NCBI GenBank assembly: GCA_017410525.1
Contig: JAFQQQ010000003.1
Location: 1 to 46,208 of the forward strand
Direction of reading: 5' to 3'
DNA length: 46,208 bases
DNA from: Bacilli bacterium
GTDB taxonomy: Bacteria > Bacillota_I > Bacilli_A > RF39 > UBA660
The stretch's first letter is position 1, and every line of letters begins with the position of its first letter. This document shows positions 16,322 to 40,494 of the stretch, piece after piece. The translations under genes and the position numbers were made by a program. A model generated the notes under the pieces. It saw only the letters and a program-made list of their open reading frames with translations. It had not been told where the DNA came from and did no database searches.

Positions 16322-16327
16322 TAAATT

Positions 16328-16505
16328 GCTGGAAGATGCGATAAATAATCCCATATGAAAAACCTACTAATCGAAAATATTGGGAATCTAATTCAGACCG
16401 GTGTAGAATACCTAAATTTATTTAGGGATCCTAAAGGTTTTGATGTGATGCCCACCTGGGAGACTAGGTTTTATTCGATTCGGGATGCCGCTCTTCTGGC
16501 TTTTT
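16328..16505 (+). ncRNA. ssrS: 6S RNA-like structured RNA
   Basis: A ~173-base non-coding transcript. The 5' end (16328-16336) pairs with the 3' end (16492-16500), an inner three-pair block (GCG 16338-16340 with CGC) continues the stem, and a T run at 16501-16505 makes the closing stem its own terminator. The interior includes GATGCCCACCTGGGAGA and a large central bubble, resembling 6S RNA, which binds housekeeping RNA polymerase in stationary phase. Size, closing stem, position and promoter support this; the exact family is not proven. SRP RNA, tmRNA and RNase P RNA do not fit. Confidence 0.65.
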
Positions 16506-16520
16506 AATTATGGAGGTTGT

Positions 16521-22823: not shown

Positions 22824-23048
22824 GTAATTGAAGAAAAAATTTAAAAGCTGTGAAGAAGAATAGTAAAATAATGAGTTTTAAAGAGAGTTAGTGTTTGGTG
22901 TAAACTAATAAATGAATTATTTGAAGAAACTTTGGAGCTTATATAATACGTTAACAACGTTATAGTTTAAAGGTGTAGAAATACATAAATTAAGGTGGTA
23001 CCACGAATAGATTCGTCCTTATATATAGGAAGAGTCTATTTTTTATTA
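22824..23048 (+). promoter_or_regulatory. T-box leader of gltX
   Basis: T-box motif AAGGTGGTACCACG at 22994-23007. Stem I contains AGTA on its 5' side (22862-22865), the AGAGAGTTAGTGTTTGGTG distal region, and a 3' specifier side with GAAGAA at 22923-22928, whose GAA reads Glu. The terminator (about 23009-23021 pairing with 23030-23042) ends in a T run. Uncharged tRNA-Glu binding should favour the antiterminator and gltX expression. Confidence 0.9.
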
Positions 23049-30437: not shown

Positions 30438-30716
30438 TAAGCCTTTTTTGCGGCTTAACAGATTAAATGTGTTGATTGAGAGAAGTAATAATATAAACTG
30501 ATTAAAGAGAGTTAGTGTTTGGTGCGAACTAACATTAAGTATATTATGAATAACACTCATGAACTATTAACTTGAACAAAGTAAAGTTAATCGGTTGTAA
30601 CCCGTTAAAAATTACACGATTTGATAGAATCGGTAAAGTGGTCATTGATATGACAAGTTGGGTGGCACCGCGGAAATAGTTCGTCCCAAATAGTGAGACG
30701 GATTACTATTATTAAA
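30438..30716 (+). promoter_or_regulatory. T-box leader of the tRNA-Asn/gatCAB/asnA/asnS operon
   Basis: T-box motif GGGTGGCACCGCGG at about 30659-30672. Stem I has AGTA on its 5' side (30484-30487), the AGAGAGTTAGTGTTTGGTG region, and the specifier side GAATAACA, where AAC at 30552-30554 reads Asn. GAA and AAT overlap just before it. The expected terminator pairs around 30676-30686 with 30697-30711 but lacks a proper T run, so the switch may be leaky. Uncharged tRNA-Asn should raise expression of the whole operon. Confidence 0.88.
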
Positions 30717-30718
30717 TT

Positions 30719-30794
30719 GCCTGATTAGCTCAGTCGGTAGAGCGCACGGCTGTTAACCGTTAGGTCGTAGGTTCGAGTCCTACAAGAGGCGCCA
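30719..30794 (+). tRNA. tRNA-Asn(GUU) inside the T-box operon
   Basis: 76 bases with encoded CCA and G73. The anticodon loop CTGTTAA gives GTT; the T arm GTAGG-TTCGAGT-CCTAC and D arm GCTC/GAGC are good. The acceptor GCCTGAT against AAGAGGC has two adjacent mismatches (positions 5-68 G/G and 6-67 A/A). It is transcribed behind the Asn T-box and separated from gatC by a terminator-like palindrome. Confidence 0.9.
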
Positions 30795-39681: not shown

Positions 39682-39709
39682 TTGACAAAACAAAAAAATA
39701 AGTTATAAT
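39682..39709 (+). promoter_or_regulatory. Promoter of the tandem leader
   Basis: TTGACA (39682-39687), 16-base spacer, TATAAT (39704-39709). Confidence 0.8.
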
Positions 39710-39718
39710 GTTAGTTAA

Positions 39719-39808
39719 GTGAGAGGGCATAAGGTAACGAGCTGTCCTGGGAGAAATCTTACACGTAAAACACGGAGTCACTTTTAATAGGCTTGCGTGT
39801 TTTTTTTC
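39719..39808 (+). promoter_or_regulatory. Attenuator-like leader, unit 1
   Basis: GTGA (39719-39722) can pair with TCAC (39778-39781), enclosing a hairpin GGGCA/TGTCC (39725-39746) and two ACACG blocks (39761-39765, 39770-39774). CGTGT (39796-39800) before eight T can pair with either ACACG block, giving a terminator or an alternative fold. Very similar to unit 2, 120 bases away. Confidence 0.6.
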
Positions 39809-39839
39809 ATATTTTGGCAATCTATTAATAATTATTCTT

Positions 39840-39928
39840 GTGAGTATGCATTAAAGCTGCATAGGGATTACTAGTCCTACACGTGTATGACACGGAGTCA
39901 CGTCTTAGTGATTTTCGTGTCTTTTTTT
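39840..39928 (+). promoter_or_regulatory. Attenuator-like leader, unit 2
   Basis: Same plan as unit 1: GTGA (39840-39843) with TCAC (39898-39901), hairpin TATGCA/TGCATA (39845-39863), ACACG at 39879 and 39890, and CGTGT (39916-39920) followed by seven T. ACACGGAGTCAC is identical in both units. The GNAT ribosome site AAGGAG follows directly. Could be a riboswitch pair; no known class was recognised. Confidence 0.6.
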
Positions 39929-39945
39929 GATAAGGAGATGATATT

Positions 39946-40494
39946 ATGTATTTTAAAAAAGTAGAAGGAAAAAGGGTGTATTTATCACCCATGTGTGTAG
40001 AAGATGCTGAAAAGTATGTAAAATGGATGAATGATTTTGATGTTACAGATAAAATTAATTCAAGTTGTAATGTAATAACTGTAGAAAGTGAAAAAGTGTG
40101 GTTAGAAAAAAATAGTGGGATAGGTAATTACCAATTTGCAATCGTAAAACAAGAAAATGATGAACTTATAGGTAACTGTAGTTTACACAACTTAGATTTT
40201 ATAAACGGGAGGGCTACTGTAGGAATATTTATAGGTGAGAAAGAAAATAGGGGTATGGGATATGGTAGTGAAGCATTAGAGTTGCTATTAAGTTATGGAT
40301 TTAATCATTTAAATCTAAATAATATAATGCTTGCAGTATATTCTTTTAATGAACCCGCAATTGCTTGTTATAAAAAAGTTGGTTTTAAAGAAATAGGAAA
40401 AAGAAGAGAAGCATATTTTAAGAATAATGAAAGATATGATGAAATATTCATGGATATACTTAGAAGTGAATTTTATGAAATGTATAAAAATTAA
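39946..40494 (+). CDS. GNAT acetyltransferase, RimJ/RimL type
   Basis: 182 residues. The GNAT core shows LIGNCSLHN (beta 2-4), the acetyl-CoA loop ENRGMGYGSEALELLL (R/Q-x-x-G-x-G/A), and the C-terminal NEPAIACYKKVGFKEIGKRREA. The family acetylates protein N-termini, polyamines, amino acids or antibiotics. The substrate is unknown; control by a tandem attenuator leader suggests response to a small molecule or to translation stress. Single gene. Confidence 0.9.
   Translation: MYFKKVEGKRVYLSPMCVEDAEKYVKWMNDFDVTDKINSSCNVITVESEKVWLEKNSGIGNYQFAIVKQENDELIGNCSLHNLDFINGRATVGIFIGEKENRGMGYGSEALELLLSYGFNHLNLNNIMLAVYSFNEPAIACYKKVGFKEIGKRREAYFKNNERYDEIFMDILRSEFYEMYKN

Follow-up and report, generated by a model that had tools for sequence, protein, structure and literature searches.

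The leader of a GNAT acetyltransferase gene in a gut bacterium of the Bacilli contains, with good probability, an undescribed cis-regulatory RNA in two copies, which is most likely an ON riboswitch for a toxic small molecule; this is inferred without data from binding, probing or expression experiments. The RNA is an orphan riboswitch candidate. It has an undescribed fold, is doubled in series, and is a candidate activator of detoxification genes; ligand binding and switching are inferred. In gut Bacilli and some Clostridia it precedes many genes for drug export or detoxification. A preliminary description of the window (the whole stretch of 46,208 nucleotides analysed here), made from the sequence alone, had proposed two riboswitch or attenuator units in series upstream of the GNAT gene. 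Homologues, covariation and the absence of an Rfam match support this proposal.

Architecture of the leader

All features of the leader are on the forward strand. The element starts with a sigma-70-type promoter (TTGACA-16-TATAAT, 39682-39709; 12/12 consensus matches), followed by unit 1 (39717-39807), unit 2 (39838-39928) and the regulated gene, which encodes a GNAT acetyltransferase of 182 aa (39946-40494; Pfam Acetyltransf_3, E 6.6e-22) and has the Shine-Dalgarno sequence AAGGAG at 39932-39937. An intrinsic terminator closes each unit. The identical sequence that first drew attention to the locus is the 12-mer ACACGGAGTCAC, found at 39770-39781 and 39890-39901 with a spacing of exactly 120 bases. 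No third copy is present in the window at up to two mismatches (chance expectation 0.32; two reached in 3/100 shuffles), and there are no further copies across the whole 1.04 Mb genome at up to one mismatch. The repeat with this 120-nt spacing spans 43 nt at 74% identity.

The candidate aptamers of unit 1 (39717-39783; 65.2 bits with model R3, filters off) and unit 2 (39838-39903; 62.2 bits) have the same minimum free energy (MFE) structure when each is folded in isolation: a four-way junction of helices P1 to P4, with a 6-bp P2. P1 is GUGA/UCAC in both (39719-39722/39778-39781 and 39840-39843/39898-39901); these are the closing pairs picked out in the preliminary description, and they occur in both MFE folds. 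That description also placed an inner hairpin in each unit. There is a hairpin, but there are three per unit rather than one. In unit 1 these are P2 (39724-39729/39743-39748), which carries UAAG (39730-39733) and GAGC (39739-39742), P3 (39749-39752/39757-39760) and P4 (39764-39766/39772-39774). In unit 2 they are P2 (39845-39850/39858-39863), with a shortened loop UUAAAGC that lacks UAAG and GAGC, P3 (39864-39869/39873-39878) and P4 (39882-39886/39890-39894). The junction linkers are G (J1/2), none (J2/3), ACA (J3/4; 39761-39763 and 39879-39881) and GAG (J4/1; 39775-39777 and 39895-39897). Folding energies of the isolated aptamers are ordinary when compared with shuffled sequences (z -0.2 for unit 1, -1.1 for unit 2), so the claim for the fold depends on covariation, which also supports the unit 1 aptamer.

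The terminator of unit 1 (39768-39807) ends in a run of eight T (39800-39807), and its hairpin has a z of -3.5, reached in 0/200 shuffles. Its 5' arm overlaps the 3' strand of P4, J4/1 and, through UC (39778-39779), half of the 3' strand of P1. The terminator of unit 2 (39889-39928) consists of a hairpin (39889-39921; z -5.9, 0/200 shuffles) and a run of seven T (39922-39928). It had been suggested that the terminator could pair with either of two ACACG blocks. This is not borne out: the usual arm is formed by the second block and the 3' strand of P1 only. The ACA of the first block is the junction linker J3/4 and its CG is the start of P4; the block is not a conserved terminator partner. It was rejected as a general partner because homologues with an AAUU-type P4 do not have it.

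Homologues and covariation

An exact search with the 12-mer covered 78 relatives and identifies the same leader in two genomes of the same genus, as a tandem in one (G009) and as a single unit in the other (G005). In a genome of another genus (G045) the RNA precedes an unrelated ABC transporter gene. Covariance model R1, built from four sequences, matches in 46 of 291 family genomes (about a sixth) and in 33 of 150 genera; three of its matches (L060-L062; 20-25 bits) were dropped because the conserved core is missing. Scanning named genome contigs for the pattern yields at least 112 stretches, mostly from RF39-type gut Bacilli and some from Clostridia; Onthousia, Pelethosoma, Faecimonas and Ventrenecus are among the matches, and we take these names to belong to the RF39 group. 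Pattern matches in records from Bacteroidaceae, Polyangiaceae, Peptococcaceae, Chloroflexi, Phycisphaerae and Bacteroidales were discarded, being coding-like by eye and unmatched by model R2, as was one match on a viral contig, a GC-rich and coding-looking sequence which R2 does not match either. Several Clostridia carry the RNA with GC-richer stems, and in one clostridial order it is present in 14 of 33 genomes. Since a sample of 392 genomes from the phylum gives no match beyond the family, the distribution is patchy. It should be noted that the source records are mostly metagenome assemblies and that the E-value calibration is rough. A total of 164 distinct units was collected.

The fold is well supported by these homologues. 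Across the 62 sequences of alignment A4, 96.5% of pair cells are paired, as against 80% in shuffled and 30-51% in slid controls, and double changes occur in 15 of the 19 pairs. Alignment A5, with 98 sequences including Clostridia, has 94.8% paired and contains 388 double-change cells (141 in shuffles). RNAalifold returns the same four helices from the fitted alignment. A4 and A5 are fitted to the covariance model, and P2 was therefore also tested without any model, by comparing the six bases that follow GYGAR with the six that follow AGC; this anchored test is the only model-free one. It gives 36 distinct stems with 98.6% paired, versus 62% when partners are permuted (maximum 72% in 1000 trials). 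A lack of covariation in homologues had been named at the outset as grounds for refutation; covariation is instead strong in A4, in A5 and in the model-free P2 test. The junction bases G, ACA and GAG are conserved, as is, in most units, the UAAG/GAGC internal loop of P2. Two clostridial units (L208 and L210) have an extra, structured-looking domain of about 80 nt between UAAG and GAGC, and in one locus (L055, 2028-2146) P2 and P3 are repeated before a single P4, a partial duplication inside one unit.

A T-run lies 3' of 160/162 units, at a median of 20 nt past UCAC, and in 148 of these 162 units the terminator hairpin takes up the UCAC of P1, compared with 58 when the downstream sequence is shuffled. 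P1 and the terminator are, as judged from the predicted pairings, mutually exclusive. A -10 hexamer stops 8-11 nt short of GUGAG in 98 of 164 units; from this placement, transcription is expected to start at the RNA itself.

Twenty-five pairs of units lie within 300 nt of each other, and their starts are 113-277 nt apart. A -10 box is found upstream of 24/25 first units versus 13/25 second units. A short P2 without UAAG/GAGC marks the second unit of seven tandems: that of the window (39840-39901) and those of L068, L069, L126, L164, L168 and L194. The second unit of L168 also looks degenerate in its TACAC/GGAGTCAC core. Because the UAAG/GAGC loop is missing from unit 2 of the window, binding of the same ligand is not assured; its affinity or its ligand may differ from that of unit 1.

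Downstream genes and the putative ligand

The first gene behind each RNA was picked automatically, and some picks are possibly wrong. ABC transporter ATPases make up 36 of 128 first genes, usually with permease genes next; the best match of the ATPase is to the DrrA subfamily of daunorubicin resistance, with a score under its cut-off. At least 20 of the 128 are GNATs. The others include three MFS genes, three nucleotidyltransferases, two S51 peptidases, one S66 peptidase and one methyltransferase. The PDB structures nearest to the GNAT of the window are aminoglycoside 6'-N-acetyltransferases (6erd, 8q6u), and the nearest PDB relatives of the S66 enzyme are MccF/MccC-family proteins. Within the genus the leader accompanies all four GNAT orthologues, including one which is only 66% identical (G008). 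In two clostridial loci (L097 and L107) the RNA is followed by a dCTP deaminase-like gene, which in L107 adjoins GNAT genes.

A family of small proteins from small-genome gut Bacilli accounts for 35 of 121 complete first genes (for example L162:1751-2281; alignment A7). The members scanned have no Pfam match, and the family profile matches no PDB sequence. The predicted fold (pLDDT 87.6) matches the Spo0A C-terminal domain (Foldseek probability 1.00), with a Z of 11.5 over 111 residues in the fold comparison; the next unrelated structure scores 4.0. Going by this model, the small proteins are a new stand-alone Spo0A-C-like family. The family is missing from 16 of 18 RNA-bearing genomes tested, its absence extending to the window's own genome. 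It was rejected on this ground as a trans-acting regulator and is regarded as a target.

Given the drug-type exporters and modifying enzymes among the targets, the ligand is most likely a toxic small molecule. The RNA probably senses such a compound and turns on the bacterium's own defence genes. Antibiotics or polyamines had been put forward as signals; an antibiotic-like ligand fits the wider regulon, without having been demonstrated, and polyamines find no specific support. A microcin-C-like (aminoacyl-nucleotide) antibiotic can be guessed at from the GNAT, MccF-like S66 and PepE-like S51 targets; with only three peptidase genes, it stays a guess. The varied gene set could also reflect a protein or a general stress signal instead of one small molecule. 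In one genome (G106; contigs C20, C28 and C33) the RNA occurs four times, ahead of different genes; such a small regulon is useful for finding the signal. The regulon as a whole gives a handle on uncharacterised exporters and acetyltransferases and on the new Spo0A-like protein family.

Switching mode, rival explanations and known RNA classes

In most units the terminator claims P1's 3' strand and the -10 box stands 8-11 nt upstream of P1, so the folded RNA is taken to be the ON state; the folded junction should correspond to readthrough, a switching direction which is inferred. In the proposed mechanism, transcription would start a few bases 5' of P1. The nascent RNA could then form the four-way junction closed by P1, or it could give up P1 and P4, the 3' strands of which would become the 5' arm of the intrinsic terminator. 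If a ligand stabilised the junction, P1 would stay closed and the terminator could not form, leaving the gene ON. With two such switches in series the polymerase would reach the GNAT gene only after passing both terminators, which is predicted to give less leakage and a steeper response. A steeper response has been described for riboswitches in series where both terminators must be passed (PMC9481103). It is possible, if rather speculative, that this is a widespread natural riboswitch class devoted to antibiotics or other natural toxins, in which many loci have two sensors in series and a second, short-P2 sensor with a different ligand makes a two-input AND gate for defence genes.

The RNA adds an undescribed fold, with over 160 examples, to the orphan riboswitch candidates, and its predicted ON mechanism is clear; this makes the ligand question directly testable. 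The targets suggest that gut and digester bacteria use an RNA to sense a toxic compound; to our knowledge, few natural riboswitches for such a compound have been described.

Binding of the leader by a protein, either an antiterminator or a repressor, with the junction as recognition site and no small-molecule ligand, is unlikely but has to be considered. Such a protein could make equal use of a conserved junction and of a switch between P1 and terminator, and the regulon is diverse. The commonest candidate regulator is, however, the Spo0A-C-like family, which most RNA-bearing genomes tested do not have; no other protein adjoins the RNA throughout (a general host protein is not excluded), and conservation is centred on the internal junction, as in an aptamer. 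Least probable of all is attenuation by a ribosome that stalls on a leader peptide, the mode of many antibiotic-resistance leaders, despite the resemblance of the regulon to resistance genes and an open frame that runs from the GTG of P1 in unit 1. Upstream ORFs led by a Shine-Dalgarno sequence are not above chance (8 units versus 18 in shuffles), the ends of the P1 GTG frame are widely scattered, and the inferred start a few bases before P1 leaves no space for a ribosome site. There is no conserved short ORF with a ribosome site, and leader-peptide attenuation is thus largely refuted.

It remains conceivable but improbable that the RNA has diverged from a riboswitch class already known, or that its class was published outside Rfam and the literature searched. 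The preliminary description recognised no known class and named an Rfam match as grounds for refutation; Rfam 15 provides none: no family matches the units at the gathering threshold, and a permissive search (E up to 10) with the window units and with GC-rich and consensus-like homologues gives only chance-level matches. These are weak matches to sRNA, miRNA and antisense-RNA families, far under the gathering scores, and were rejected. The azaaromatic (yjdF) and guanidine-I riboswitches also sense toxic small molecules and switch on efflux or detoxification genes. Both have Rfam models; their folds differ from that of the candidate RNA, and neither model matches the window units. The NiCo riboswitch is likewise a four-way junction and an ON switch with exporter targets. 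It has no Rfam match here, its conserved junction bases are presumably different, and the targets of the candidate RNA are drug-type exporters and modifying enzymes.

In favour of a known identity stand guanidine-IV and its variant Gd4v, which are terminator ON switches controlling GNAT and exporter genes; Gd4v is gut-enriched and its ligand is unknown (PMC9788692). Gene context and the overlap with the terminator fit the same ON mode, which is a likeness of inferred mode and not of membership. In guanidine-IV and Gd4v a pseudoknot connects two hairpins, the second of which is the terminator (PMC9788692), and guanidine-IV tandems were not found (PMC9481103), whereas the candidate RNA, compared with these published descriptions, is a covarying four-helix junction closed by P1 and is frequently in tandem. 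Its core sequence strings are absent from the literature searched, which did not extend to a survey of 224 motifs (NAR 2017); a term search of the main text of two ncRNA surveys (PMC11109978, PMC8632094), supplements excluded, finds no such motif.

The layout itself has parallels. Pseudo-cooperative tandems of the TPP and c-di-GMP-I classes also place two complete riboswitches in series, each with its own expression platform (PMC9481103); the aptamer of the candidate RNA is undescribed, and its second unit often has a short P2. T-boxes are similar in being antitermination leaders before genes, sometimes in series. The T-box model (RF00230) does not match at the candidate leader. It has two matches elsewhere in the window, T-box leaders at 22841-23023 and 30463-30691, the second of which directly precedes a tRNA gene (30719-30791). 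The window also contains a 6S RNA gene at 16323-16506 (RF00013, 58 bits).
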